DNA from: an uncultured Gammaproteobacteria bacterium
GTDB taxonomy: Bacteria; Pseudomonadota; Gammaproteobacteria; Steroidobacterales; UBA11654
Assembly: GCA_902595845.1 (NCBI GenBank)
Contig: CACJRN010000004.1
Span: 53,737-117,736 of the forward strand
Length of the DNA: 64,000 bases
Reading direction: 5' to 3'
Position 1 is the stretch's first letter. Every line of letters starts with the position of its first letter. The position numbers were made by a program, and so were the translations under genes. Below, in pieces: positions 2,242 through 43,049 of the stretch. The notes below the pieces were generated by a model. The model was given only the letters and a program-made list of their open reading frames with translations, did no database searches and had not been told where the DNA came from.

Positions 2242-2688
2242 ATGTTTAGAGGATTAAATAAAATTAGTTTAGATACTAAGGGACGGATATCGATTCCTAC
2301 AAAGTATCGTCCAGAACTCGCAAACTATGGCTCCAATAAGCTCATATGCACCATTGATATAGATCAATGCTTGCTTCTGTATCCAAAAAAGATCTGGCTT
2401 AAGATTGAAAAAACAATTATGGATCTACCCTCGCTTGATCCTTCTAGCAGGATGCTTCAACGCTTAATGGTTGGCCATGCAAGCGAGATAGTACTCGACA
2501 GTCATAATAGAATATTGGTTCCAATTGAATTAAGAGAATTTTCTGGGATCAAAAAATCAGCAATGTTTATTGGTCAAGGACAACGTTTTGAGATCTGGAA
2601 TTATCAATCATGGAATCAGTCAAGAGATGCATGGCTGAAGAAAAGTGATTTTACATTAACAGAACAACTTAGGGATATTTCAATTTAG
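2242..2688 (+). CDS. mraZ: transcriptional regulator MraZ
   Basis: MFRGLNKISLDTKGRISIPTKYR and C-terminal AbrB-like repeat; ORF track start 2197 lies inside the operator, so internal ATG 2242 preferred. Confidence 0.93.
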   Translation: MFRGLNKISLDTKGRISIPTKYRPELANYGSNKLICTIDIDQCLLLYPKKIWLKIEKTIMDLPSLDPSSRMLQRLMVGHASEIVLDSHNRILVPIELREFSGIKKSAMFIGQGQRFEIWNYQSWNQSRDAWLKKSDFTLTEQLRDISI

Positions 2689-2699
2689 GCAGAATACAT

Positions 2700-3875
2700 A
2701 TGGGTGAATTTGCTTTTGAATTAATGGATACAGATAGCCAAAGGGCCAACATAAAAGTCATTGGTGTCGGCGGAGGGGGCGGTAATGCTGTCAATCATAT
2801 GATCAGAGAGGGCATCCAAGGTGTTAATTTTGTTTGTGCAAATACCGATACACAGGACCTCTCATCATCGCCGGCTGAAGAGAAAATTCAGCTTGGTGTT
2901 GAAACTTCAAAAGGACTGGGTGCTGGCATGAATCCAGAGATTGGAAAAGCTTCTGCTGAAGAAGCGGCTGAAGCTATAAAAGCACTTCTTTCTGACACCG
3001 ATATGTTATTCATAACAGCTGGATTCGGTGGAGGCACGGGTACTGGAGCCAGTCCAGTTATTGCAAAAATTGCGAAAGAGATGGATATCTTAACAGTTGG
3101 CGTAGTTACAAAACCATTTCAATGGGAAGGCGATGAAAGGTCTTCTCTTGCTGAGCATGGGCTGAGGGACCTTGAACAACATGTTGACTCTTTGATTGTG
3201 ATTCCTAACGATCGATTACAGTCATTGGGCAAAAAAATTACCGTGTTTAATGCGTTTGATGCAGCAAATGATGTTTTATTAAATTCTGTTCAAGGGATAG
3301 TAGAGTTAATTACTGTTCCGGGTGTAATCAATCTTGATTTTGCTGATGTGAAAGCAGTCATGGGCAAGAAAGGGCGAAGCATTATGGGTTCAGCTATTGC
3401 ATCTGGACCCGATAGAGCAAGACTTGCTGTAGAAAAAGCAGTCAAGAGCCCCTTATTGGAAGACATCAATTTAGAAGGCGCATCTGGAATACTTCTCAAT
3501 GTCACTGTGGGAACAGATCTTGAGATTTCGGAGTTTAATCAAATCGGAGATATTGTTCAGGGTTATGCAGCAGAAAAATCAAAAGTCATTGTTGGTACTG
3601 CACTATCGAGTGATCTTGAGGATGACAGCATAAGAGTGACACTGGTTGCTACAGGCTTAAGCGCATCAAAAACAGATGATGCCAAAGAGAAAGATCGTGA
3701 AAGGTCCTTTGATGATTTAGATCGTCCCATTACAGCCAGGAATGGATTAAAGCAACAAACGACTCAAGACATGTTCGAAAGCTTTGAGAAAGCAAAGCCA
3801 ACTGGAGATCTCGAAGAAGAGTTACTGGATATACCTCGCTTTTTAAGAAGACAAGATCCTGATCTAGATTTCTGA
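2700..3875 (+). CDS. ftsZ: cell division protein FtsZ
   Basis: GGGGNAVNHM, FGGGTGTGASP, NPD-type T3/T7 regions, conserved C-terminal peptide LDIPRFLRRQ. Confidence 0.98.
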   Translation: MGEFAFELMDTDSQRANIKVIGVGGGGGNAVNHMIREGIQGVNFVCANTDTQDLSSSPAEEKIQLGVETSKGLGAGMNPEIGKASAEEAAEAIKALLSDTDMLFITAGFGGGTGTGASPVIAKIAKEMDILTVGVVTKPFQWEGDERSSLAEHGLRDLEQHVDSLIVIPNDRLQSLGKKITVFNAFDAANDVLLNSVQGIVELITVPGVINLDFADVKAVMGKKGRSIMGSAIASGPDRARLAVEKAVKSPLLEDINLEGASGILLNVTVGTDLEISEFNQIGDIVQGYAAEKSKVIVGTALSSDLEDDSIRVTLVATGLSASKTDDAKEKDRERSFDDLDRPITARNGLKQQTTQDMFESFEKAKPTGDLEEELLDIPRFLRRQDPDLDF

Positions 3876-3889
3876 TACTGGCGCAAAGT

Positions 3890-4807
3890 ATGATCGACGA
3901 ATCATTTCATATCCCGGTATTAACTGAGGAAGTTATTGATTTGCTTCTCGTTAAGAAAAGCGGCACGTTTCTGGATGTGACATCAGGTTTTGGCGGTCAT
4001 TCTGCTGCTATTTTGGAAGAATTGAATGGTGGTTCACTTATTGCAACGGATCAGGATCCTGAAGCTATTAGATTTCTAAAATCAAAATTCAAAACTGAGA
4101 AGAGAATCAGTATTCACCAAGCTCGTTTTAGCGAATTACATAAATTATTTAGCGCAAATGATTTTGATGGAATACTGGCTGATATTGGAATTTCTTCATA
4201 TCAATTGGATACTGCAGAAAGAGGCTTTAGTTTCATGAAAGATGGTCCTCTTGATATGAGAATGAATCAAAATATAGGTGAAGATGCATCAAGCTGGCTG
4301 AATAATGCTTCAGAACAAGAGATTTCAAATATTATCTGGAAATACGGCGAAGAAAAAAAAGCAAAAAGAATCGCCAAAGCAATTGTTGAGGCTAGGAAGA
4401 GTTTTAAAATCAGAACAACAAAAGAACTGGCCGAAATCATTCTTGAAGAGACTCCAAGAAGATTTAATGACAAGAAACATCCAGCAACAAAAACATTTCA
4501 AGCGATAAGGATATTTATTAATAATGAGCTTGAAGAGCTTGATTTACTTTTGGATTTCGCATCAAAACATCTAAAAATTGGTGGCAGAACTTGCATCATT
4601 AGCTTCCATTCATTAGAAGACAGAATGGTGAAACGATTCTTTAGAGATCATTCAAGACGAGATCCGAAACTATCTAAGCTTCCAAACCTAGCAGATGATT
4701 CATCATTTAAGTTAGTCACCAAGGCCATAAAGCCAAGTGAAAATGAAATGAATATTAATCCAAGGTCAAGAAGTGCGACGCTTAGGGTGATTGAAAGGAT
4801 AAAATGA
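3890..4807 (+). CDS. rsmH: 16S rRNA (cytosine1402-N4)-methyltransferase
   Basis: HIPVLTEEVIDLL, DVTSGFGGHSAAIL, RGFSFMKDGPLDMRM, FHSLEDRMVKRFF motifs. Confidence 0.97.
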   Translation: MIDESFHIPVLTEEVIDLLLVKKSGTFLDVTSGFGGHSAAILEELNGGSLIATDQDPEAIRFLKSKFKTEKRISIHQARFSELHKLFSANDFDGILADIGISSYQLDTAERGFSFMKDGPLDMRMNQNIGEDASSWLNNASEQEISNIIWKYGEEKKAKRIAKAIVEARKSFKIRTTKELAEIILEETPRRFNDKKHPATKTFQAIRIFINNELEELDLLLDFASKHLKIGGRTCIISFHSLEDRMVKRFFRDHSRRDPKLSKLPNLADDSSFKLVTKAIKPSENEMNINPRSRSATLRVIERIK

Positions 4808-5094
4808 AGTCAGAGAATATTAAATATAAATGGCTCTTTTTTTGGTATCTGATGGTTTGTCTTTCAGGTTTATACGAAGTTCAATTGCATTTTAATAAAA
4901 GGAATCTATTTCAAGAATACCAAACCATTGTTTCAGAAACTCAGAAAATCGAAATGGAATGGAGGGAGCTTCAGCTTGATTATTCTGCATTGACATCTGG
5001 ACAAAAAATTGGATTAACGGCTAAAGATAAAGCCAGTATGAAACTTCCAGATTCTAGGAAAATAAATTTACTTAGCAAAGATGAAGAGAACTGA
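4804..5094 (+). CDS. ftsL: cell division protein FtsL
   Basis: Short single-TM coiled-coil protein between rsmH and ftsI; LQLDYSALTS. Confidence 0.8.
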   Translation: MKSENIKYKWLFFWYLMVCLSGLYEVQLHFNKRNLFQEYQTIVSETQKIEMEWRELQLDYSALTSGQKIGLTAKDKASMKLPDSRKINLLSKDEEN

Positions 5095-6751
5095 GAAAGG
5101 ATTAATGCAATCAAGATTTATATTCTTATTATGCCTGATATCAGTCATGCTTTTGGGTCTATTCGCTCGTTCTTTTTATTTGCAGTATCTTGAATCCGAC
5201 TTTCTGAATTCAGAGGGTGACAAGAAGCATATTAAACACAAAACTATTCCCGCGAACAGAGGTAGTATCTATGATAAGAATGGTGTGCCACTTGCTGTGA
5301 GTATTCCTGTATATAGATTGATAGTTGACCCAAAAACTTTGCTTAAGAGGGATAATTACTCTCAACTGTTGAGTTCACTCTCAAAAATAATCTCAAAGCC
5401 TGAAAGAGAAATCGATTCAGAAATAAGAAAGAGGAGCAGCAAAAGATACTTTGTGCTCAAAAGAGAATTAAGAAAATCTGAGGTCGAAATCGTACGCAAG
5501 GATAATTTTGGAAACTATATATGGCTTGAAACTTTTTATAAGAGGTTTTATCCGAATGGAGAAACTTCATCTCATTTATTGGGCTTCACTGACAATGAGG
5601 GCAGAGGACAAGAGGGTTTAGAGTATGCTTTAAATAAGGGACTCTCTGGAACCAATGGCTTAAAAAAGACACTTACAGATGTGCATCAAAAAAGTATTGC
5701 AGATGTGGAGATCATCAATGACCCTATAATTGGCGAAGATTTTTATGCAAGCATAGATATTAAAATACAACATTTTGCACATGAAGCTCTGAAATCAGCA
5801 ATTGAAAAAAATAATGCGAAGGGCGGATCCGTCGTTGTAATGGACGTAACCACTGGAGAGATTTTAGCAATTTCAAATCAGCCAGCCGGAGATCTTTCAT
5901 TGTCAAAAAATAGAACACCCAAAATATATAAGAATAAAGCAATCACAGATAAGTTCGAGCCTGGCTCAACATTCAAGCCTTTAATGATGGCTGCAGCTTT
6001 GGAAAACCAAATTTATCAGGCTGACGACACTATAGACACATCGCCATACAAAATTGGTTCGAGAACCATTCAAGATCCAAGATATCATGGTGTTTTATCT
6101 ATGGAAGAGGTGCTCATAAAATCAAGCAATACTGGCATCTCCAAGATAGCCTTGGAGCTTGACCCTTGTAATCTATACACATTTTTTAACGGCCTTGGTT
6201 TTGGCCAAGTCACATCTTCTGGTTTTCCTGGTGAAGCATCAGGAACGCTCGATTATCAATGTAGCAGATGGAGAGAAGGCATGATTGCTTCTCTTTCATA
6301 TGGATACAATGTTGATGTCAGTCTCATACAGCTTGCAGGGGCATATGCAACCATTGCAAATGGCGGAATTAGGAAGCCCGTTACTTTGAGAAAGATTGAA
6401 GGTGGCATAATAGATGGTGAACGCGTTCTTTCGGAGCAAACTTCCAAGGAGATCATGTCAATGCTTGAAAAAGTTGCCATAAGAGGCGCACCACGCGCAA
6501 AGATCAATGGTTATAGGATTGGCGGTAAGACTGGAACAGCTCAAATTGCAGCTGCAAATTATGCTTCAGATAAGCACAATGCTTTATTCGTGGGTTTGGC
6601 GCCACTCACAAAACCAAAGATAGCAATTGCCGTTATTGTTAATGAGCCTGGTGGAAAAGAATATTATGGCGGACAAGTTGCAGCACCAGTTTTTTCTGAG
6701 ATAGGTTCGCATACGCTTAGGCTTCTGGGAATAGCACCTGATGACAAATAA
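5081..6751 (+). CDS. ftsI: peptidoglycan transpeptidase FtsI/PBP3
   Basis: N-terminal TM, RGSIYDKNGVPLAVS, active site STFKP, SSN, KTGTAQ motifs. Confidence 0.97.
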   Translation: MKRTEKGLMQSRFIFLLCLISVMLLGLFARSFYLQYLESDFLNSEGDKKHIKHKTIPANRGSIYDKNGVPLAVSIPVYRLIVDPKTLLKRDNYSQLLSSLSKIISKPEREIDSEIRKRSSKRYFVLKRELRKSEVEIVRKDNFGNYIWLETFYKRFYPNGETSSHLLGFTDNEGRGQEGLEYALNKGLSGTNGLKKTLTDVHQKSIADVEIINDPIIGEDFYASIDIKIQHFAHEALKSAIEKNNAKGGSVVVMDVTTGEILAISNQPAGDLSLSKNRTPKIYKNKAITDKFEPGSTFKPLMMAAALENQIYQADDTIDTSPYKIGSRTIQDPRYHGVLSMEEVLIKSSNTGISKIALELDPCNLYTFFNGLGFGQVTSSGFPGEASGTLDYQCSRWREGMIASLSYGYNVDVSLIQLAGAYATIANGGIRKPVTLRKIEGGIIDGERVLSEQTSKEIMSMLEKVAIRGAPRAKINGYRIGGKTGTAQIAAANYASDKHNALFVGLAPLTKPKIAIAVIVNEPGGKEYYGGQVAAPVFSEIGSHTLRLLGIAPDDK

Positions 6752-6813
6752 TTTTAATATGATAAGTGTTAATCTAACGACAATATTTTTTAGGAGATGT
6801 TGAGTAAGTAACC

Positions 6814-7893
6814 ATGTTTTTATATTTTTCTGAAAATTTGATTGAGTGGTTTTCGCCATTGAATGCTTTCACTTATATTACAACCAGAGGCATTCTCGCT
6901 GCACTAACAGCTCTTATTATTTCTTTCCTTTTTGGCCCCAAGATCATCACTGTGCTTCAGGGGAAAAAAATCGGTGAGACAATCAGAACCGATGGCCCAT
7001 CCAGTCACTCTTTAAAAGGTGGCACTCCAACGATGGGAGGAATCATAATTATTCTCTCAATTGTTGTCAGCGTTCTTATGTGGTCAGACTTAAGCAATGT
7101 TTATAATTTGGTTCTCATTGCATCAATCATTTCTTTTGGACTCATTGGATTTATTGATGATTTCACAAAACTTAAAAAAAGCAAAAAAGGAATGTCTGCA
7201 AAAACAAAGTTTGCTTTGCAGCTTATCGTCGCTGCTTCATCGACTTATTATCTATTGGGGCAAGGGAGCGAAGTATTGAGTTCAGAGGTCCTTATTCCTT
7301 TCACAAATAATATTCGAGTTGATTTAGGCTGGCTCTTTTTGCCTTTTGCAATTTTCGTAATTGTTGGCTCAAGCAATGCAGTTAATCTAACCGATGGATT
7401 GGATGGTTTGGCAATCATGCCTGTCTCAATGATTGCAATTGCCTTAGGAATTTTTGCTTATGTGACTGGTAATTTTAACTTTGCTGAATATCTGGATTTG
7501 CCATTCCTAAAAGATGCGGGCGAAGTTTTTGTTTTTTGTTGTGCGATCTCTGGTGCTGGATTGGGGTTTCTTTGGTTTAACACTTATCCAGCTCAGATTT
7601 TTATGGGAGATGTCGGTGCAGTGTCACTTGGCGGAATTCTTGGAACCATTGCTGTCATTGTCAAACAAGAGTTGATTTTGGCTATCATGGGCGGGGTTTT
7701 TATCATGGAAACCTTATCAGTGATTCTTCAGGTTGGTTCATTCAAGCTGAGAGGAAAAAGAATCTTTAATATGGCTCCAATACATCATCACTTCGAATTA
7801 AAAGGATGGGCTGAGCCCAAAGTGATTGTGAGGTTCTGGATCATCACCGTTTTTCTTGTGCTCATAGGCTTATCAAGTCTAAAGATAAGGTGA
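6814..7893 (+). CDS. mraY: phospho-N-acetylmuramoyl-pentapeptide transferase
   Basis: GGTPTMGG, NLTDGLDGLA, APIHHHFELKGW motifs. Confidence 0.98.
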   Translation: MFLYFSENLIEWFSPLNAFTYITTRGILAALTALIISFLFGPKIITVLQGKKIGETIRTDGPSSHSLKGGTPTMGGIIIILSIVVSVLMWSDLSNVYNLVLIASIISFGLIGFIDDFTKLKKSKKGMSAKTKFALQLIVAASSTYYLLGQGSEVLSSEVLIPFTNNIRVDLGWLFLPFAIFVIVGSSNAVNLTDGLDGLAIMPVSMIAIALGIFAYVTGNFNFAEYLDLPFLKDAGEVFVFCCAISGAGLGFLWFNTYPAQIFMGDVGAVSLGGILGTIAVIVKQELILAIMGGVFIMETLSVILQVGSFKLRGKRIFNMAPIHHHFELKGWAEPKVIVRFWIITVFLVLIGLSSLKIR

Positions 7894-7894
7894 T

Positions 7895-9046
7895 ATGAAT
7901 ATCGCGACGAGAGGATCAAACGATGCATTCGATCGACTCTTTTTAATAGCTTGTGCATTTTTAGTCATCGGAGGCATTGTGATGTTGGCTTCAGCATCCA
8001 TGCCAATTTCCATGAAACATTTTGGAAGTCCTTATGGCTATGTGAATAAGCAACTTTTTTCAATCGGACTTGGCTTGGCTGGCGGTCTGTTTATATTTGT
8101 TATACCCACACAATTTTGGGAAAAAATAGGAATATTTTTGCCACTCTTATCTCTTATTCTTTTGGCATCCGTTTTTATTCCTGGCATGGGTTTGACTGTG
8201 AATGGATCAACAAGATGGCTCACTATACCTGGTCTTCCTAATATTCAAGTTATTGATCCTGCTAGATTGTTGCTGATGATGTATATGGCAGGATATTGCT
8301 ATAGGCAACAAGAGAATGTAAAAGATAATTTTATGAGTTTCGTGAAACCGATGATTTTTATCATCCCAGCATGTCTTCTCTTATTGCTTCAGCCTGATTT
8401 TGGCTCAACGGTTATTATTTTATCAGTTACGGCTGGACTGTTTTTCTTAGCAGGATTTAAAATGAGATTCTTTATCTTATTGGTTATGCTCCTCGCGTCA
8501 TTATTTGCAGTGCTCATATATATTGCGCCATACAGAATGGCTAGGCTGACATACTTTCTTGAGCCATGGAATGACCCTCTTGGAGCTGGCTACCAGCTCA
8601 CTAATTCGCTCATTGCGATTGGCTCGGGTGGATTATTTGGCTTAGGGCTCGGGGAAAGCTTGCAAAAGCTTTTTTATCTACCAGAAGCGCATACAGATTT
8701 TATATTTGCAATCATAGCTGAAGAGCTTGGCTTGCTTGGCACAATCATTCTGTTGTTACTTTATAGTCTTTTGATCTATCGAATCTTTGCGATTGGATTT
8801 ATGGCGCTGAATGCAAAAAGAGTCTTTCAAAGTTACTTATGTATGGCAATAGGACTATGGTTAGCGATGCAAGTGATCATTAACTTGGGGGTAAACATGG
8901 GCATGCTGCCGACCAAAGGTCTCACCTTGCCACTGATTAGTTACGGAAGCAGTAGTATTTCTATGACATTGGTCACTCTCGCGATTGTTCTAAAGATTGG
9001 GTACGAGAACCCCAGGAAAAAGAAGAATTTAAGAACCAATGGGTGA
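7895..9046 (+). CDS. ftsW: lipid II polymerase/glycosyltransferase FtsW (SEDS family)
   Basis: Multi-TM SEDS protein; QPDFGSTVI, LPEAHTDFIFAIIAEELG, LPLISYGSSS. Confidence 0.95.
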   Translation: MNIATRGSNDAFDRLFLIACAFLVIGGIVMLASASMPISMKHFGSPYGYVNKQLFSIGLGLAGGLFIFVIPTQFWEKIGIFLPLLSLILLASVFIPGMGLTVNGSTRWLTIPGLPNIQVIDPARLLLMMYMAGYCYRQQENVKDNFMSFVKPMIFIIPACLLLLLQPDFGSTVIILSVTAGLFFLAGFKMRFFILLVMLLASLFAVLIYIAPYRMARLTYFLEPWNDPLGAGYQLTNSLIAIGSGGLFGLGLGESLQKLFYLPEAHTDFIFAIIAEELGLLGTIILLLLYSLLIYRIFAIGFMALNAKRVFQSYLCMAIGLWLAMQVIINLGVNMGMLPTKGLTLPLISYGSSSISMTLVTLAIVLKIGYENPRKKKNLRTNG

Positions 9047-10166
9047 TCAGTATAGAATACTTATTGCCACTGGCGGCACTGGCGGCCATATTTATCCTGC
9101 AATTGCTTTGGCTCATCACTATGAAAACGACGGACATCAAGTCATTATTGTTGGGACTGGGAATGAGACAGAGAAAAAGATCTTTGCATCTGAAGACCTT
9201 ACGGTGAAGTATTTCCCATCAAAACTCAAAGATTATCCAACTTATAAAAAATTCTTATACAGCTTTTGGGTGGGTAAAGAAGTTAAGAATTTTGTAAAAG
9301 AAATAAAACCTGACATGATTCTTGGAATGGGCGGATATGCATCATCCGAAATTTGTCGTGCTGGAGGTAGAAATGTATGTGTGATCATTCAAGAGCAAAA
9401 CTCGATAGCAGGTAGAGTGAATAGATTTCTTATTTTTTTTAGGAAAGCGAGCGCTGCAATACAAGGTTTGCCAGGTGCATTTGGTAAATTAGACAGATTG
9501 ATGATGAGATTTTCGGATGACATGAGATTTTTAGGAAATCCAATCAGGAAAGAGATTTTAGATATTAAAAGAGATTCTCTCAAAGCGGATCAATCTAAAG
9601 ATTTAAAAGTTTTTATTATGGGAGGAAGCCAGGGAGCAAGATCAATAAATATGAGTGCTCCAAATGCATTAGCAGCTCTCAACAGGACTATGAATATAAA
9701 GGTTGTGCACGATACTGGAGATCATGATTATGATGAAGTCAATGATGCATATAAAAGGCTTGGTATAGATGCAAAAGTATCAAAATTTAATCCAAATGTA
9801 GAATCGGCATATGGCTGGGCAGACTTATTTATAGGAAGAGCTGGAGCAATGACTGTTTCTGAGCTCAGTGCTATTGGACTTCCCTCCATTCTGATTCCTT
9901 TCCCATATGCCATGGATAATCATCAATTTTATAATGCCCGCTTTCTAGAAGAGAAAGGCGGGGCAGTAATCATTGATGATAAGAATCTTACATCTGAACA
10001 TCTAGCAGACGTAATTAAGGACCTAAGCGAAGATAGAGAAATATTAAAAAAAATGAGTGAATCAGCCTTTGACGATCGTTTTGTTCACGCCACAAAGAAT
10101 ATTGTTGATTTTACTTATCAAGTTATTAAGAAATTTAAGCTAATGGGTGACCATTATCCAATGTGA
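9039..10166 (+). CDS. murG: UDP-GlcNAc:lipid I GlcNAc transferase MurG
   Basis: ATGGTGGHIYPAIALA, GMGGYAS, QEQNSIAGRVNR, GGSQGARSIN, RAGAMTVSEL. Confidence 0.97.
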   Translation: MGDQYRILIATGGTGGHIYPAIALAHHYENDGHQVIIVGTGNETEKKIFASEDLTVKYFPSKLKDYPTYKKFLYSFWVGKEVKNFVKEIKPDMILGMGGYASSEICRAGGRNVCVIIQEQNSIAGRVNRFLIFFRKASAAIQGLPGAFGKLDRLMMRFSDDMRFLGNPIRKEILDIKRDSLKADQSKDLKVFIMGGSQGARSINMSAPNALAALNRTMNIKVVHDTGDHDYDEVNDAYKRLGIDAKVSKFNPNVESAYGWADLFIGRAGAMTVSELSAIGLPSILIPFPYAMDNHQFYNARFLEEKGGAVIIDDKNLTSEHLADVIKDLSEDREILKKMSESAFDDRFVHATKNIVDFTYQVIKKFKLMGDHYPM

Positions 10167-11032
10167 TGAGGAATAATATTATCCTTAATGAGCCTTTATC
10201 GAGGCATACCTCATGGAAGGTTGGTGGTCCTGCTGATATTTTTTTTACACCAAATGATCGAAAAGACCTCTCTGATTTTTTGAAATCAAATGATTGCATA
10301 ATCACCTGGTTAGGAAATGGAACAAATATTTTAGTAAGGGATGCTGGCGTTAGAGGTGCGGTAATTTCAACAAGAAAGTCTCTTAATAAAATTGAATTAA
10401 TAGACCAATCTAATTATTTGGTTGAAGTCGGCGTTTCATGTTTTCAATTAGCCATGTATGCAACAAAGAATAATTTCGGACCAGCTGCATTTTTTTCTGG
10501 AATACCTGGATCAATTGGAGGAGCGCTGACTATGAATGCGGGTTGTTTTGGCAATGAAACATGGGAATTTGTTAAGAGTGTTGAGGTGATGGATCGAAAT
10601 GGAGAGATTCACCAACTAGACCCAAAAGAATTTTCAATTTCATATCGATCAGTGGGTTTCCCATTTCCTCTCTGGTTCTTATCTTGCGTGATGTCTTTTC
10701 CGGAAGAGGGGTTTACCACAATAGAAGAGTTGAAGAGCATGAGAGATTCTAGATTAGAGCGCCAACCCCTTACTGAGAATACATGCGGATCTGTTTTCAA
10801 GAATCCAGATGGAAACTATGCTGGCGATCTCATAGAAAGATCTGGCCTGAAAGGTTTTAGAATTGGAGGATGCGCCGTTTCAGAAAAACATGCAAACTTT
10901 ATTGTTAATGACAAAGAGGCAACCGCCAGTGATATTGAAACACTGATCAAGCATATTCAGAAAACTGTTAAGGATCATTATGGGATAGACTTAGAAACTG
11001 AGGTCAGGATCATCGGTGAGTATCATGAGTGA
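10163..11032 (+). CDS. murB: UDP-N-acetylenolpyruvoylglucosamine reductase
   Basis: SRHTSWKVGGPADIF, GNGTNILVRD, SGIPGSIGGALTMNAGCFGNE, CGSVFKNP. Confidence 0.96.
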   Translation: MMRNNIILNEPLSRHTSWKVGGPADIFFTPNDRKDLSDFLKSNDCIITWLGNGTNILVRDAGVRGAVISTRKSLNKIELIDQSNYLVEVGVSCFQLAMYATKNNFGPAAFFSGIPGSIGGALTMNAGCFGNETWEFVKSVEVMDRNGEIHQLDPKEFSISYRSVGFPFPLWFLSCVMSFPEEGFTTIEELKSMRDSRLERQPLTENTCGSVFKNPDGNYAGDLIERSGLKGFRIGGCAVSEKHANFIVNDKEATASDIETLIKHIQKTVKDHYGIDLETEVRIIGEYHE

Positions 11033-11945
11033 TGAAATAAAATCTTTTTCAAAAGTAGCAGTGCTTTATGGTGGGAGCTCTTCTGAGAGAGAAATATCAC
11101 TTATAACTGGTAAAGCTGTATTTGAATCTTTGCAATCTAAAGGGCTAGAAGTGATTCTTGTTGACACCATTGACCCATTTATTGAAGTTTTGAAGACTGA
11201 AAAAGTCACTCACGCATGGATAGCTCTTCACGGTTCTGACGGCGAAGACGGAAAGATACAGTCAATCCTAAATATGCTAAAAATAAAATATACAGGAAGT
11301 GATCCAATCACTTGTTCGATTACGATGAATAAGTATTTTACTAAGACAATTTTGAAATCTAATGGATTTAAAACTCCTGAGTTTATGGTTGTCGATTCAA
11401 GCACTCAATATGAAAACATTATTAAAAAATTAAAAGAACCCTTTGTATTAAAACAATGCTCAGAGGGATCAAGTATTGGCATTTATATTATTCAAAGCAA
11501 AGAGGAGTACTTACAATATTTTTCTGAAATTGAAAAAAGCAATGATTGGATCATTGCCGAGCAATTCATGCAAGGTGATGAATACACTTCTACATTTTTA
11601 GACGGCAGAGCGCTCCCAATCATCAAGATCCAAGCAAAAAATCATGAATTCTATGACTATGATGCAAAATATTTGAGTGATGAAACCAAATATATATGTC
11701 CCTGTGGATTAGATGCAGAAATAGAAATGGCAATTAACGAAGAATGTGAGAGGGCTTTCAATTTATTTAATATCAAAGGGTGGGGGAGGCTTGATTTTTT
11801 TCTAGATCAGCATAATGCTCCAGTAATCCTTGAAATCAATACAGTTCCTGGAATGACAACGCATAGCCTAGTGCCGATGTCAGCAAAAGAAGCAGGAATT
11901 GATTTTGAATCATTGTGTTTTGAGATTCTAAAATCATCGGATTGA
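11016..11945 (+). CDS. ddlB: D-alanine--D-alanine ligase
   Basis: VLYGGSSSEREISL, HGSDGEDGKIQ, ATP-grasp EINTVPGMT. Confidence 0.95.
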   Translation: MSIMSDEIKSFSKVAVLYGGSSSEREISLITGKAVFESLQSKGLEVILVDTIDPFIEVLKTEKVTHAWIALHGSDGEDGKIQSILNMLKIKYTGSDPITCSITMNKYFTKTILKSNGFKTPEFMVVDSSTQYENIIKKLKEPFVLKQCSEGSSIGIYIIQSKEEYLQYFSEIEKSNDWIIAEQFMQGDEYTSTFLDGRALPIIKIQAKNHEFYDYDAKYLSDETKYICPCGLDAEIEMAINEECERAFNLFNIKGWGRLDFFLDQHNAPVILEINTVPGMTTHSLVPMSAKEAGIDFESLCFEILKSSD

Positions 11946-11948
11946 ACT

Positions 11949-12710
11949 TTGGCACTGCTTGCAAAAAAAAGAATAAGAAAGAATAGAAGAAGAGGCGCTT
12001 TTTCTTCTAGAACAAAACTCCACCAAGAGAGAAGCCCAAGGGGAATGGCCAGAAAAATAATTTATTTAATGATTTTCTCAGGGGCTCTTTTCTCTGCTTT
12101 CTCACTGATCAATCAAAAGATTACTGAAGTTCAATATGTGACCGAAATAAATAGAGTTTCTTTGGATGATCTGGAAGCAGTTTCATCAAGAATTTATAAC
12201 CAAGGTTTTTTGCAAATTAATTTGAGCCATGCCAAGCAAGAAATAGAAGCAATTAATTGGGTAAAAAGTGCGAGCATCGAAAGACGATGGCCTGATCGTG
12301 TAAATATCTTCATTGAAGAAGAGAATATTATTGGTCGCTGGAACAATCAGTCGATTATTAACTCAAAAGGCAATCTTTTTAATCTCAACCAGCAAACATT
12401 GCCAAGTGGCTTAATTGAATTTTATGGACCCAATGGTCAGCAAGACATAGTTTTTAAAAAGTACTTAGTATTTTCACAAGAATTGGCTGCGAGAGGAATC
12501 CTAATTGAAAGAATGACACTTGATTTTAAGGGATCATGGAGTATTACAATTAGGCCTGGTATCTCCATAAGGTTTGGAAAAGATAATGTCAGTGAGAGAT
12601 TTGAACGTTTTTTGATGATTTGGGATGAATCTCTATTAGATAATTTGGCAGTAATTGAATATATTGACCTAAGATATACAGAAGGTTTTTCAATTAAAAA
12701 AAGAAAGTAA
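11949..12710 (+). CDS. ftsQ: cell division protein FtsQ (TTG start)
   Basis: N-terminal basic region, TM, POTRA-type domain, WVKSASIERRWPDRVNIFIEE motif; between ddl and ftsA. Confidence 0.88.
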   Translation: MALLAKKRIRKNRRRGAFSSRTKLHQERSPRGMARKIIYLMIFSGALFSAFSLINQKITEVQYVTEINRVSLDDLEAVSSRIYNQGFLQINLSHAKQEIEAINWVKSASIERRWPDRVNIFIEEENIIGRWNNQSIINSKGNLFNLNQQTLPSGLIEFYGPNGQQDIVFKKYLVFSQELAARGILIERMTLDFKGSWSITIRPGISIRFGKDNVSERFERFLMIWDESLLDNLAVIEYIDLRYTEGFSIKKRK

Positions 12711-12718
12711 ATATTCAA

Positions 12719-13951
12719 ATGGCAAGAAGTGGCTCAAGTGAAATCATTGCATCTGTGGATATAGGAACATCCAAGATCGTAGCTTTGATAGCAGAAATAA
12801 ACGGTGACAATGAGCTGAAGATTATCGGAGTAGGTACGGAACCCTCTCGAGGACTAAAGAAAGGTGTGGTTGTAAATATTGAGTCCACCGTGGATTCAAT
12901 TGGAAAAGCAATCAAGCAAGCAGAGGGAATCGCAGAATGTGATATCAATACTGTATTCGCAGGCATAGCAGGCAGCCATGTCAGAAGCTATGATGGCCAC
13001 GGTTTTGTCCGTATCAATGAAGGAGAAGTCTCTCAAGAAGACATTGATGGGGCAGTCGATGCATCCATTGCGATGAAGATTCCATCAGAAGAGAGAATAT
13101 TGCATGTACTCCCAAAAGATTTTGTGATTGATGGACAAGATGGAATCTCTGAACCAATAGGTATGTCAGGAATTAGACTTGAAGCAGATGTGCACATTGT
13201 AACCATATCGAAAACAGCTGAAGAGAATATTGTGAAATCGCTTGATCAATGCGACCTTGATATACAAGAAGTAGTCCTGGAACCGCTTGCATCGAGTATG
13301 TCGGTTTTATCGCAAGATGAGAAAGAATTGGGCGCTTGTTTGATTGACATAGGTGGCGGGACAACAGATATTGCAATCTTTAAGGATGGTCAAATTATAA
13401 CCACGAAGGTTATTCCTGTTGGCGGTGATCATGTGACAAGGGATATAGCTCATGAACTAAAAACCCCTGTAGATGAGGCTGAGGTCATAAAAATTAAACA
13501 TGCTGCAACACTCTCAAAGCTCAATGGTTCAGATGAACTCATTGATGTTCCGAGTGTTGGAGATCGAGAGGCGAGAAAGACAGACAGAAAGGTACTTGGT
13601 TCTGTGGTCGAGCAAAGATATGAGGAAATATTTGAGGTTATCAAGAGCGAGGTTGGCAAGATCAGTCTTGAAAGCATAAGAGCCGGTGTCATTTTGACAG
13701 GCGGTGCATCTAAATTAGATGGAGCTGTTGAATTGGCTGAGGCTGTTTTTGACTGTGATGTTAGATTAGGATATCCCAAACCAATGAGCGGAGCATTTGA
13801 ATCAATCAATGGGCCTGAGCATGCAACTGGTGCAGGTCTTCTCTTGTATGCGCTTGAAAAATATAAATCCAAGCCGGATGATTTGGTAAAACAAAAATCT
13901 GCTGCGCCCTTGTTCCAAAAAATACAAAACTGGTTTTCATCAAATTTATAA
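12719..13951 (+). CDS. ftsA: cell division protein FtsA
   Basis: VDIGTSKIVALIAE, LIDIGGGTTDIAIF, ILTGGASKL, C-terminal amphipathic FQKIQNWFSSNL. Confidence 0.97.
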   Translation: MARSGSSEIIASVDIGTSKIVALIAEINGDNELKIIGVGTEPSRGLKKGVVVNIESTVDSIGKAIKQAEGIAECDINTVFAGIAGSHVRSYDGHGFVRINEGEVSQEDIDGAVDASIAMKIPSEERILHVLPKDFVIDGQDGISEPIGMSGIRLEADVHIVTISKTAEENIVKSLDQCDLDIQEVVLEPLASSMSVLSQDEKELGACLIDIGGGTTDIAIFKDGQIITTKVIPVGGDHVTRDIAHELKTPVDEAEVIKIKHAATLSKLNGSDELIDVPSVGDREARKTDRKVLGSVVEQRYEEIFEVIKSEVGKISLESIRAGVILTGGASKLDGAVELAEAVFDCDVRLGYPKPMSGAFESINGPEHATGAGLLLYALEKYKSKPDDLVKQKSAAPLFQKIQNWFSSNL

Positions 13952-14025
13952 AAAAATATTTGGGATATAGTATCTTTATGATAGTCTTTAGCTGCCTATA
14001 TCATTGATTTATAGGGAAAAGATAA

Positions 14026-14940
14026 ATGTTACATCAAAGAACAATTGCGAGCAGTATAGAAACATCAGGTGTTGGTTTGCACAGTGGGAAAAAGGTGCAA
14101 ATGACATTGAGACCTGCCTTAGAGAATTCTGGAATAAGATTCAGAAGAATGGATACTGATCCAATTCAGGAAGTCCATGCCATTGCTGACAATGTAACTG
14201 ATACGAATCTTGGCACAACAATATCTGAGAATGAAACTTCAATAATGACCGTTGAGCACTTGCTTTCTGCATTGGCAGGACTCGGTATTGATAATGTGTA
14301 CATTGACCTTCATGGTCCAGAGATACCCATCATGGACGGGAGTGCTGCGTCTTTTATACTTCTTATTGAATCAGCGGGTATCCAAGAACAATCCGCTGCA
14401 AAAAAATTCCTTAGAATCAAAAAGAATATAAGGGTTGAAGAGGATGGAAAATTCGCAGAGTTTAGACCATTTGACGGCTATCGTCTTACTTTTGATATTG
14501 AATTTGAGCATCCAATGATTCAAAACGAATTAACACATTTCAGTTTTGATTTTTCTACCATGAACTTTCTTGAGCATATATCGAGAGCCAGAACGTTTGG
14601 TTTTTTGAGAGATATCGAATCACTGAGATCAAATAATCTAGCCTTGGGTGGAAGTTTAGATAACGCCATTGTGCTCGATGATTATACGATCATAAATAAA
14701 GATGGACTCAGATTTGAGGACGAGTTTGTGAGACATAAAATATTGGATGCAGTTGGTGATCTATATCTGATGGGCCATATATTGGTGGGGGAATATCATG
14801 GCTATAAATCTGGCCATGACCTGAATAATAAATTGATCAGAAAGCTCTACGCTGATTCTTCAGCTTGGGAGGAGGTCAAGGAAAAAGACATTAAAGAGAT
14901 ACCAATTTCATATTGGACTGCTGCACTTGGCAAAGCTTAG
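14026..14940 (+). CDS. lpxC: UDP-3-O-acyl-N-acetylglucosamine deacetylase
   Basis: QRTIASSIETSGVGLHSGKKV, TVEHLLSALAGLGIDN, HKILDAVGDLYLMG, GHDLNNKLI... zinc-binding motifs. Confidence 0.97.
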   Translation: MLHQRTIASSIETSGVGLHSGKKVQMTLRPALENSGIRFRRMDTDPIQEVHAIADNVTDTNLGTTISENETSIMTVEHLLSALAGLGIDNVYIDLHGPEIPIMDGSAASFILLIESAGIQEQSAAKKFLRIKKNIRVEEDGKFAEFRPFDGYRLTFDIEFEHPMIQNELTHFSFDFSTMNFLEHISRARTFGFLRDIESLRSNNLALGGSLDNAIVLDDYTIINKDGLRFEDEFVRHKILDAVGDLYLMGHILVGEYHGYKSGHDLNNKLIRKLYADSSAWEEVKEKDIKEIPISYWTAALGKA

Positions 14941-39090: not shown

Positions 39091-40407
39091 ATGAGCAATG
39101 CTTTACCAAATTTAGAACATTATTGGATGCCATTCACTGGCAATAGATACTTTAAGAAGAATCCAAGAATGTTTAAGGAAGCGAGTGGCATGCATTACAC
39201 CACATATGATGATAAAACTGTTATGGATGGTGTCTCAGGTCTTTGGTGTTGCAATGCAGGACACTGTCATCCAAAAATAGTTGAAGCCATCCAAAAACAA
39301 GCAGAAACATTGGATTACGCAACTGCCTTTCAGCTTGGCCATCCAACAATCTTTGCAATGGCTGAAAAGTTGGTAGACATGGCACCAAAGGAACTGACGC
39401 ATGCTTTTTTCACAAATTCTGGTTCAGAGGCTGTCGATACAGCTCTTAAAATTGCTCTTGCATATCATCGAGCCAGAGGCGAGGGACATAGAACAAGACT
39501 GATCGGCAGAGAAAAGGGATATCATGGTGTTGGTTTTGGCGGGATTTCAGTTGGCGGTATGTCACCCAATCGCAAGATGTTTGGCGCAATGCTACCTGGA
39601 GTCGATCATCTGAAACATACTCATAATCTAGAGCACAATGCTTACTCAGTTGGTCAACCAAAATGGGGAGATCATCTTGCTGATCAGCTAACAGAAATAT
39701 TGATGTTGCATGACCCGTCCACTGTGGCGGCAGTCATTATGGAGCCCATCGCTGGTTCGGCTGGTGTTTATCTTCCACCTGTTGGTTACCTCAATCGGAT
39801 CAGAGAAATATGTGATGAGCATGGAATTTTACTCATCCTTGATGAAGTCATTACCGGATTTGGCAGAACTGGAAGTAATTTTGGTTCAGATGCATTTGGT
39901 GTGACACCGGATATCATGACCATTGCAAAAGGGATGACGAGTGGAACAGTTCCAATGGGTGGGGTATTGGTTAAGGAAGAGATTTACGATACTTTCATGA
40001 CTGGACCTGAGGATGCGATCGAGTTTTTTCACGGTTATACCTACTCAGGACATCCTTTGGCTGCAGCAGCAGGACTGGCAACACTCAAGGTTTATGAAGA
40101 AGAAGGACTTTTTGAAAATGCAAGGAAACTGGCACCAGTTTTGGAAGAAGAGATCCATCAAATCAAAGGAACGAAACATGTGATTGATATCAGAAATTTT
40201 GGTTTATTGGGCGCAGTTGAACTGAATCCAATTGAAGGCAAGCCAACTGCAAGGGCGCTCAGTGTATTTAGAGAGTGTTATGACAGAGGCGTTCTGATCA
40301 GAACCACTGGTGACACAATTGCGATGTGCCCTCCATTTATTGCAACTGCCGATGATATTAGAAAAGTGGTGCATACTGTCAAAGAATCACTAGAAGCAAT
40401 CGAATAA
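39091..40407 (+). CDS. omega-amino acid (beta-alanine)--pyruvate aminotransferase, class III
   Basis: HYWMPFTGNRYFKKNPRMF, FFTNSGSEAVDTALKIA, LILDEVITGFGRTG, HGYTYSGHPLAAAAGLA. Confidence 0.9.
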   Translation: MSNALPNLEHYWMPFTGNRYFKKNPRMFKEASGMHYTTYDDKTVMDGVSGLWCCNAGHCHPKIVEAIQKQAETLDYATAFQLGHPTIFAMAEKLVDMAPKELTHAFFTNSGSEAVDTALKIALAYHRARGEGHRTRLIGREKGYHGVGFGGISVGGMSPNRKMFGAMLPGVDHLKHTHNLEHNAYSVGQPKWGDHLADQLTEILMLHDPSTVAAVIMEPIAGSAGVYLPPVGYLNRIREICDEHGILLILDEVITGFGRTGSNFGSDAFGVTPDIMTIAKGMTSGTVPMGGVLVKEEIYDTFMTGPEDAIEFFHGYTYSGHPLAAAAGLATLKVYEEEGLFENARKLAPVLEEEIHQIKGTKHVIDIRNFGLLGAVELNPIEGKPTARALSVFRECYDRGVLIRTTGDTIAMCPPFIATADDIRKVVHTVKESLEAIE

Positions 40408-40416
40408 GAGCCAACT

Positions 40417-41907
40417 ATGACATCAATTATTAATCATTGGATTAACGGTGAATTACAACCATCAGCATCTGAAAGATATGGTGATGTATTCAATCCTGCA
40501 ACAGGAGAAGTCAGCGCATCGGTCTCAATGGGTAATTCTGATGATCTAGAAAAAGCAGTTGAATCTGCTTCAAAAGCATTTGAGACTTGGTCACAAACCT
40601 CTGTGACAAAACGTGCTCAGATTTTCTTCAAATACAAAGAGTTACTTGAATCAAATAGAGAAGAGCTAATAGATCTCATTACGGCAGAACATGGAAAAGT
40701 TGCTGCCGATGCTGCAGGATCTTTGCAGAGGGGCATTGAAGTCGTTGATTTTGTATGTGGCATCCCTCATTTGCTAAAAGGCGAATTCAGTGAGCAAGTT
40801 GGGACGGGCATCGATTGCTATTCTACGCGACAGCCAATCGGGGTTTGTTCTGGTGTAACACCATTTAATTTTCCAGCAATGGTACCGATGTGGATGTTTC
40901 CGATTGCCATTGCTTGTGGGAATACGTTTATCTTAAAACCTTCAGAAAAGGATCCATCATGTGCAATGAAACTTGCTGAACTTCTGCAAGAGGCTGGATT
41001 ACCCAAGGGGGTCTTAAATGTATTAAATGGCGATAAGGAAATAGTCGATGCCATTTTAGATCACCCTTCAATTAAGACATTTAGTTTTGTTGGTTCAACT
41101 CCTGTAGCCCAATATGTGCATGAGAAAGCATCAGCCAATGGAAAGAGAGTTCAAGCATTGGGAGGAGCAAAGAATCATGCAATTGTTCTTGAGGATGCGT
41201 CGCTTGATCAAACTGCGAATGCGATCATTGGAGCGGCATATGGCTCAGCAGGAGAAAGATGCATGGCAATTTCAGTTGTGGTGGCTGTAGAGAGTGTTGC
41301 TGATGAACTTTGTGGTCTTTTAACCAAAAAAGCTGAGTCACTGAGAATAGGTCCAGGAAATGAACCTGAAAATGAAATGGGACCGCTCATAACAGATGAT
41401 CATAAAAATAAAGTCATTGATTATATTCAACAAGGTGAAGACGCTGGAGCAACTATCTTATTGGATGGTCGTGATCATGAGGTCACAAGCAAACCCGGAT
41501 TTTTCCTAGGTCCCACACTCTTTGATCATGTCAATCCAGAGATGAGCATCTATAAGGAAGAAATATTTGGTCCGGTTCTAGTTGTGCTCAGAGTGAAAGA
41601 TTTTAATGCTGCCATTAAATTAGCGAATGAGCACCAATTTGGAAACGGAGTCGCCATTTTTACAAATCAAGGCTCAAAGGCTAGAGAATTTGTTCACTCA
41701 GTCGAGGTTGGAATGGTTGGAATCAATGTCGCAATACCTGTGCCACTGTCTTTTTATACATTTGGTGGATGGAAAGATTCAATTTTTGGTTCATCTAATA
41801 TTTATGGGATGGACGGGATTAGGTTTTTTACAAGAACGAAAACAGTTACAGCCAGATGGGTTGATGATGATGGATCAATTAATCTCTCAATGCCAACAGT
41901 TAAGTAG
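40417..41907 (+). CDS. mmsA: CoA-acylating methylmalonate/malonate-semialdehyde dehydrogenase
   Basis: GVTPFNFPAMVPMWMFPIAIACGNTFILKPSEKDPS, GSAGERCMAISVVV; family-specific. Confidence 0.93.
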   Translation: MTSIINHWINGELQPSASERYGDVFNPATGEVSASVSMGNSDDLEKAVESASKAFETWSQTSVTKRAQIFFKYKELLESNREELIDLITAEHGKVAADAAGSLQRGIEVVDFVCGIPHLLKGEFSEQVGTGIDCYSTRQPIGVCSGVTPFNFPAMVPMWMFPIAIACGNTFILKPSEKDPSCAMKLAELLQEAGLPKGVLNVLNGDKEIVDAILDHPSIKTFSFVGSTPVAQYVHEKASANGKRVQALGGAKNHAIVLEDASLDQTANAIIGAAYGSAGERCMAISVVVAVESVADELCGLLTKKAESLRIGPGNEPENEMGPLITDDHKNKVIDYIQQGEDAGATILLDGRDHEVTSKPGFFLGPTLFDHVNPEMSIYKEEIFGPVLVVLRVKDFNAAIKLANEHQFGNGVAIFTNQGSKAREFVHSVEVGMVGINVAIPVPLSFYTFGGWKDSIFGSSNIYGMDGIRFFTRTKTVTARWVDDDGSINLSMPTVK

Positions 41908-41921
41908 AAAGGAGTTTTGAC

Positions 41922-43049
41922 ATGTTGATTGGTGTACCAAAGGAAATTAAATCAGATGAATACAGAATTGGGCTAACTCCGGAGAGTGTTGAGATGCTAA
42001 CTCAATCTGGACATGAAGTCATGATTGAGCAAAATGCTGGATTAGGTATTGGTAAGGACAATAAAGATTACGAAGATGCAGGTGCTGAGATTGTTACGAC
42101 AAGAGAAGAAATTTTTCAAAGAGCAGAAATGATCGTAAAGGTAAAAGAGCCTCAGCTTGATGAGTGTGCTTTATTGAGATCCGATCAAATTCTATTTACA
42201 TATCTTCATTTGGCTCCAGACCCTGAGCAAGTCAAAGCACTTCTGGCCTCTGGCTGCAGAGCAATCGCTTATGAGTCAGTCAAAGCCGATGACGGATCAT
42301 ATCCATTGCTGACCCCAATGAGTGAAGTTGCTGGAAGAATGGCTGTTCAAGCTGGAGCGACATGTCTTGAGAAAGCAAAAGGAGGATTGGGGCGATTGAT
42401 CGGTGGTGTGACCAATGTCGATCCCGCAGAAGTGGTGGTGATTGGAGGAGGAGTTGTTGGATACAACTCGATCGAGATTGCGATTGGCATGCAAGCCAAT
42501 GTCACTGTTTTAGATAAGTCAGCAGAGCGTTTGGATCAATTGGAGTCAATTTTTGGGGACAAGCTTAATGCGGTGCTTGCCACAGATAAAAACAACCATG
42601 AATGCATAAAAGCCGCAGATATTGTCATCGGAGCTGTGTATATTCCGGGGGCATCTGCACCCAAATTAATCAGTCGAGAGTTGGTAAAATCAATGAAAGA
42701 TGGCTCAGTCTTTGTTGATGTTGCAATCGATCAGGGAGGCTGCTCGGAGACTTCAAAACCAACCACTCATTCAGAGCCCACTTATGTTGAAGAAGGAGTG
42801 CTGCATTATTGTGTAGCAAATATGCCTGGCGCCGTTCCTATGACTTCAACATATGCATTGAATAATGCGACAATTTCATATGTATTGAGCCTTGCCAACA
42901 ATGGATTCAATGCGGCACTTACTCTTGATGATGGATTTTGTGAAGGACTGAATATACATACCGGTAAAGTCACTATTGCTGCAGTCGCTGAAGAGCATGG
43001 TTATGAGTACCATGAACCCATCGACCTGATCAAAGGCCTCAGTGAGTAA
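41922..43049 (+). CDS. ald: alanine dehydrogenase
   Basis: MLIGVPKEIKSDEYRIGLTP, VVIGGGVVGYNSIEIAIGM, NMPGAVPMTSTYALNN. Confidence 0.96.
   Translation: MLIGVPKEIKSDEYRIGLTPESVEMLTQSGHEVMIEQNAGLGIGKDNKDYEDAGAEIVTTREEIFQRAEMIVKVKEPQLDECALLRSDQILFTYLHLAPDPEQVKALLASGCRAIAYESVKADDGSYPLLTPMSEVAGRMAVQAGATCLEKAKGGLGRLIGGVTNVDPAEVVVIGGGVVGYNSIEIAIGMQANVTVLDKSAERLDQLESIFGDKLNAVLATDKNNHECIKAADIVIGAVYIPGASAPKLISRELVKSMKDGSVFVDVAIDQGGCSETSKPTTHSEPTYVEEGVLHYCVANMPGAVPMTSTYALNNATISYVLSLANNGFNAALTLDDGFCEGLNIHTGKVTIAAVAEEHGYEYHEPIDLIKGLSE

Follow-up and report, generated by a model that had tools for sequence, protein, structure and literature searches.

In walled bacteria, the ligases MurC, MurD and MurE of peptidoglycan synthesis are considered essential and are targets of antibiotics; Mpl is regarded as an optional recycling enzyme. 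Chlamydiae retain all three ligases. Dependence on exogenous muropeptides is itself already known, and Fidelibacter multiformis IA91 of class AB16 (Marine Group A/SAR406) was reportedly the object of a study by Katayama et al. in 2024. This member of Marine Group A needs exogenous muropeptides (PMC11652737). Mpl joins the tripeptide to UDP-N-acetylmuramic acid (UDP-MurNAc) and accepts the tetra- and pentapeptide less well (PMC3060825), and ElsL, an L,D-carboxypeptidase of the cytoplasm, acts in recycling and trims the tetrapeptide (PMC8649774). Here, we describe the division and cell wall (dcw) cluster in a 64,000-nucleotide stretch (the window) of contig CACJRN010000004.1 from an uncultured gammaproteobacterium (assembly GCA_902595845.1), the genome of which contains Mpl and lacks MurC, MurD and MurE. 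In the open-access literature, no description was found of a gammaproteobacterial lineage that has Mpl and lacks these three ligases.

Closed ligase sites and the missing peptide branch

Gene presence and absence, conservation across the family, selection on the retained genes and the motifs of Mpl were computed for the source genome (G000; 1.435 Mb, 25 contigs, 92.4% complete) and ten relatives (G001 onward; n = 11 for the family). A genome-wide search with Mur ligase profiles was carried out, and the Mur_ligase_M profile, which is sensitive enough to pick up FolC at 25 bits, matched three proteins in G000, namely MurF (C20), Mpl (C1) and FolC (C7). This set was repeated in nearly all relatives, whereas other families of the order have 5–9 Mur_ligase_M matches. 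MurC, MurD and MurE were not found by these profile searches in 10 of the 11 family genomes, the exception being G008. In G000, the three ligases are absent and not relocated, and the genome does not encode the canonical de novo Mur pathway, which is defined by their presence. The first-pass annotation, made from the window, had suggested that the ligases were relocated or replaced. Relocation was borne out for MurF (G000:C20) and for murE-murD-murC-dapF of G008, which lie together in a single contiguous locus beside the ccm genes, but not for the MurC, MurD and MurE of G000 and nine of the ten relatives, where they are absent. Replacement may be right insofar as Mpl can feed into the pathway at a point after MurC–MurE.

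All dcw genes of the window lie on the plus strand, and the annotated order mraZ-ftsZ-rsmH-ftsL-ftsI-mraY-ftsW-murG-murB-ddl-ftsQ-ftsA-lpxC was confirmed by reading frames and NCBIfam matches, as were the distances at the ligase sites. The murE-murF site is closed to 62 bp between ftsI (5081..6751; reading frame) and mraY (6814..7893; 54–59% identity to other gammaproteobacterial MraY). Only 1 bp is left at the murD site between mraY and ftsW (7895..9046; TIGR02614, 374 bits, above the cut-off), and at the murC site murG (9039..10166; TIGR01133, 251 bits, above the cut-off) overlaps murB (10163..11032; TIGR00179, 204 bits, above the cut-off) by 4 bp. When the 64 kb window was searched by tblastn with MurC, MurD, MurE, MurF, Mpl and DapF as queries, the best E was 0.7, and no remnant of a ligase was seen. 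The same order is family-wide, being common to G000 and eight relatives (G001, G002, G004, G005, G006 and G008; G003 and G009 in part), and a chimeric assembly at the dcw junctions was ruled out, since these eight relatives show the identical order.

The cluster starts with mraZ (2242..2688; TIGR00242, 129 bits against a cut-off of 98), followed by ftsZ (2700..3875; TIGR00065, 404 bits; same place in relatives). In all family genomes read, ftsZ is located between mraZ and rsmH and not behind ftsA. The next genes are rsmH (3890..4807), which has a reading frame in the same place in relatives and is named by sequence and position without a profile score, and ftsL (4804..5094), assigned by position and length. 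Downstream of murB are ddl (11016..11945; TIGR01205, 283 bits, above the cut-off), ftsQ (11949..12710; NF008043, 89 bits), and ftsA (12719..13951) and lpxC (14026..14940), both assigned by reading frame and synteny. In relatives, the cluster is flanked upstream by murA, petABC, sspA and rsmI, and downstream by a DUF721-like gene and secA.

The loss goes beyond the ligases. DapF was not found in 10 of the 11 family genomes, and MurI was found over its cut-off in none of the 11. Weak PF01177 matches were considered as a hidden MurI and rejected: in G001, G003, G008 and G009 they lie amid catabolic genes, and G000 has none. Alr was found in 0/11 family genomes but in all five order relatives searched; DapA, DapB and DapD were found in none of nine family genomes out of 11, while DapA and DapD occurred in 6/6 order relatives searched. 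Composite protein queries were used in the search for CcmF, DapA, DapB and DapD and in that for MurA, NagZ, AmpG, Alr and OppA. The early reading, in which the Mur ligases are the sole missing family, is therefore right for the dcw cluster and wrong for the genome, which also lacks MurI, Alr, DapF and the diaminopimelate (DAP) pathway. For the same reason, the expectation of intact peptidoglycan synthesis fails for the peptide branch. At the stated completeness, the probability that ten genomes would all miss even one linked block by random contig loss is ~6e-9 (product of 1 − completeness).

Two further observations concern amino acids. Without DapA, DapB and DapD, G000 and eight relatives, i.e., most of the family, are probably lysine auxotrophs. 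By inspection, the window contains at 39091-43049 a row of omega-amino acid aminotransferase-like, semialdehyde dehydrogenase-like and alanine dehydrogenase-like genes, which suggests alanine metabolism in a genome with no racemase for this amino acid.

Altered Mpl, retained genes and a proposed salvage route

The Mpl of G000 scored 464 bits with TIGR01081 (curated cut-off 388.7) and matched all three Mur domains, PF01225, PF08245 and PF02875. Ten readable family Mpls were aligned with 25 from order relatives and that of E. coli, the numbering of which is used. In G009 (L201, L150, L283), frameshifts split several core genes including mpl, in a manner that resembles sequencing indels and not gene decay. 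Outside the family, 140 columns were conserved; 11 of them were replaced in every family member, and four of these 11 (P360, R361, S434 and G436) are among the Mpl-specific peptide-site residues (hypergeometric P = 0.014). These residues, with the motifs EPRSNT and SNG, are listed in PMC3060825. In 10/10 readable members, EPRSNT was changed to E[LI]A[SC]NT and SNG to TN[KR], with Arg361 replaced by Ala and Gly436 by Lys/Arg (10/10 each), Pro360 by Leu/Ile and Ser434 by Thr. Arg361 and Gly436 were kept in 26/26 Mpls outside the family. The positive charge seems to have shifted from one Mpl loop to the other. We file the family protein as an Mpl homologue and do not claim the same substrate use.

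Besides Mpl, the genes for wall synthesis and recycling were retained. MurA is present in G000 (protein-query search), and MurF scored 319 bits with TIGR01143 (cut-off 288.6). MurB, Ddl, MurF, MraY, MurG, FtsI, FtsW and Mpl are all under purifying selection. Pairwise ratios of nonsynonymous to synonymous substitutions (dN/dS) within the genus were about 0.06 for ddl, 0.06–0.10 for mpl, 0.10–0.11 for murF and 0.12–0.16 for murB. They thus lie within or close to the values of other dcw genes such as ftsI (0.05–0.07) and mraY (about 0.05). Because of these low values, the retained wall genes represent a working pathway and not decay. Among the recycling genes, AmpG scored 464 bits with TIGR00901 (cut-off 350), and NagZ was also found. 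Adjoining nagZ is a gene for a protein of 155 amino acids with a leaderless YkuD domain (PF03734) and the catalytic Cys in ...SMGCINM... It matched NF040925 over its full length with 146 bits, below the curated cut-off of 270, and its designation as ElsL-like is meant as a probable likeness of function. Across the family, a secreted Amidase_2 protein with the architecture of AmiD keeps its metal-binding residues. G000 also has an importer, with an OppA/MppA-like lipoprotein, OppB, OppC and a fused OppD-F in one operon. With AmpG, NagZ, Mpl, the ElsL-like protein and the secreted amidase, the genome has muropeptide recycling genes, as would a Fidelibacter-kind muropeptide dependence.

Based on this gene content, we propose, with a probability of about 0.7, that the cell synthesises UDP-MurNAc de novo but scavenges the tripeptide, with the muropeptides of other bacteria as its main source, and that Mpl links the two. 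MurA and the retained MurB would provide UDP-MurNAc. The secreted AmiD-type amidase could release stem peptides from muropeptides, with other bacteria as the main source for net growth; an outside source is implied because a cell's own turnover cannot double its wall. Import would proceed through the Opp-type ABC transporter for free peptides, in genomes that have it, or through AmpG for muropeptides. The ElsL-like enzyme may convert the tetrapeptide to tripeptide and D-Ala, after which Mpl would join the tripeptide to UDP-MurNAc and, given a supply of peptide, bypass the MurC, MurD and MurE steps. MurF would then add the D-Ala-D-Ala made by Ddl, which is retained although no Alr was found, and the final wall steps would be carried out by MraY, MurG, FtsW and FtsI. 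Peptide flow, the outside source and the origin of D-Ala are suggested here by gene content. The stronger version, in which the remodelled Mpl stands in for MurC, MurD and MurE as the sole entry of stem peptide, with self-made sugar and peptide from other bacteria, is one towards which we lean only slightly.

Several points weigh against this salvage route. All 11 genomes are draft metagenome-assembled genomes (MAGs) of 64–92% completeness. With the conserved peptide-site Arg lost and the positive charge apparently on the other loop, the peptide accepted by the family Mpl may differ from the standard tripeptide. The Mpl change also does not track ligase loss: G008 has the altered Mpl together with MurC, MurD and MurE, and the change therefore predates the ligase loss or is independent of it. 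The OppA/MppA-like protein was not found with the E. coli query in G001, G005, G008 and G009, so the importer is not uniform in the family and import is the weakest step of the model. Cytoplasmic AmpD was likewise not found with the E. coli query; muropeptides imported by AmpG may stay unsplit inside the cell, and this absence suggests that peptides are set free elsewhere than in the cytoplasm. It should be noted that the negatives for AmpD, LdcA and OppA come from E. coli query sequences and are weaker than profile searches. No outer-membrane uptake system was identified, and no search aimed at one was made. Finally, synthesis of D-Ala, D-Glu and DAP was not found in G000 by the Alr, MurI and Dap searches, which did not include the alternative racemases GlyA and D-amino acid transaminase.

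The G008 locus and alternative explanations

In G008 (L142 2115-11931; G008:C14), murE-murD-murC-dapF are followed on the opposite strand by AstE-like, lysA-like, dapD, dapA and dapB genes, beside ccm. This is a compact locus of Mur ligase, dapF and DAP/lysine genes outside the dcw cluster of a gammaproteobacterium. A contaminant contig was rejected as its source, CcmF being single-copy and 62–68% like that of the family versus about 49% elsewhere. The same site in G004 (L172 4607-15266; G004:C1:26607-37266) is occupied by a lysine and arginine island containing dapB, dapA, dapD, a lysA-like gene, a carbamoyltransferase gene, argG, a fused argB-argA, argC, argH and an AstE-like gene, and no mur genes. 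The AstE-like protein of this island may be the desuccinylase of the lysine route as well as of the arginine route. In G000, G002 and G009 the ccm-adjacent site is closed; in G005, G006 and G007, the available parts of it contained neither mur nor dap genes. CcmF was not found in G001, and the site was not judged there.

A tentative history, to which we give somewhat less than an even chance, is that the family ancestor gathered murE-murD-murC-dapF in one locus, which was then lost repeatedly, so that G008 would be the one member still prototrophic for the ligase steps. It would be compatible with the salvage route, not opposed to it. The existence of the G008 locus speaks for this history, as do the DapA and DapD of G008 and G004, which occupy the same site and are 67–69% alike, near the value for the vertical marker CcmF (63%). 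However, in a quick and unsure tree, the G008 MurC falls on a long branch with two marine gammaproteobacteria outside the order relatives, and transfer into G008 is therefore equally possible. Either an ancestral island with later losses or a regain by G008 fits the data, as the MurC tree does not decide between them.

As for explanations opposed to salvage, the stem peptide might still be made de novo by divergent or non-homologous ligases and racemases that escaped recognition, possibly with Mpl joining L-Ala or a dipeptide. The remodelling of the C-terminal site of Mpl in 10/10 readable family members would fit this, and Chlamydia offers a precedent, with D-Glu made by DapF (PMC5885031) and D-Ala probably by GlyA (PMC3935232). 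However, the sensitive Mur_ligase_M profile showed no further member, the set of recycling enzymes is retained, and with DapF gone in 10/11 genomes and DapA, DapB and DapD in 9/11, DAP would need a new source. We consider this explanation improbable.

It is still less probable that the missing genes sit in unassembled or unbinned DNA, for example in a second replicon or an island. All the genomes are MAGs, G008 has the genes as one island, and a survey of the class also speaks for this reading. With the MurC profile cut-off, 255 of 276 gammaproteobacterial genomes contained MurC and 21 did not. Among the 16 of these that were followed up, seven genomes of 94–100% completeness (G068, G084, G097, G099, G101, G174 and G270; L248-L254) held only Mpl and FolC, a pattern that would follow from a missing dcw contig; G323 had only MurF, Mpl and FolC among Mur-fold proteins, and the others had further Mur ligases or were compatible with missing dcw contigs. 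No second case in the class is claimed, a missing dcw contig being the simpler reading; for the seven genomes with Mpl and FolC only it is likely, and true loss less so. A missing contig cannot explain G000, in which the dcw contig was recovered and its ligase sites are closed. The state of the G008 island site in G000, G002, G005, G006, G007 and G009, the chance value given above and the fact that the missing genes are usually unlinked yet belong to one shared pathway also argue against unassembled DNA. Least likely of all is a vestigial wall with little or no cross-linked peptidoglycan and loss under way, as in a host-bound symbiont: the small genome and the lost racemases and DAP synthesis would suit it, but MurF, Ddl, MraY, MurG, FtsI, FtsW and Mpl are under strong purifying selection, and TonB-receptor-like and degradative genes in the sampled stretches (by inspection) are typical of free-living marine cells.

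Comparison with known systems

If the salvage route is true, a lineage living on Mpl alone would mean that a cell can rely on others for the peptide branch. The growth of this marine group would be tied to the wall turnover of its neighbours, which would help explain its resistance to culture, and the Marine Group A finding would gain an independent parallel in a second phylum.

Like the Chlamydiales, which make D-Glu by DapF (PMC5885031) and D-Ala probably by GlyA (PMC3935232), the family has no dedicated MurI and Alr. The Chlamydiales keep DapF, however, and it is G008, not G000, that resembles their state. The proposed scavenging of peptidoglycan fragments through AmpG is shared with Tannerella forsythia (PMC5388701), but this MurNAc auxotroph is the mirror image of G000, in which the peptide is missing. 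As in the Mpl recycling of E. coli, Psychrobacter and Acinetobacter (PMC3060825, PMC8649774), an Mpl over the cut-off occurs together with AmpG, NagZ and an ElsL-like enzyme. In those bacteria Mpl is optional beside MurC–MurE, whereas here it would be the sole peptide entry, with a changed motif.

The closest likeness is to Fidelibacter multiformis IA91 and class AB16, where D-Ala, D-Glu, DAP and Lys are not made and the recycling genes are kept (PMC11652737). Strain IA91 builds its wall from the muropeptides of other bacteria (PMC11652737), and the same is proposed here, although the dependence was established by culture in Fidelibacter and we infer it from gene content. Fidelibacter belongs to an unrelated phylum, is anaerobic and has no MurNAc synthesis, whereas in the present genome MurA and MurB are kept and the peptide branch alone is lost.

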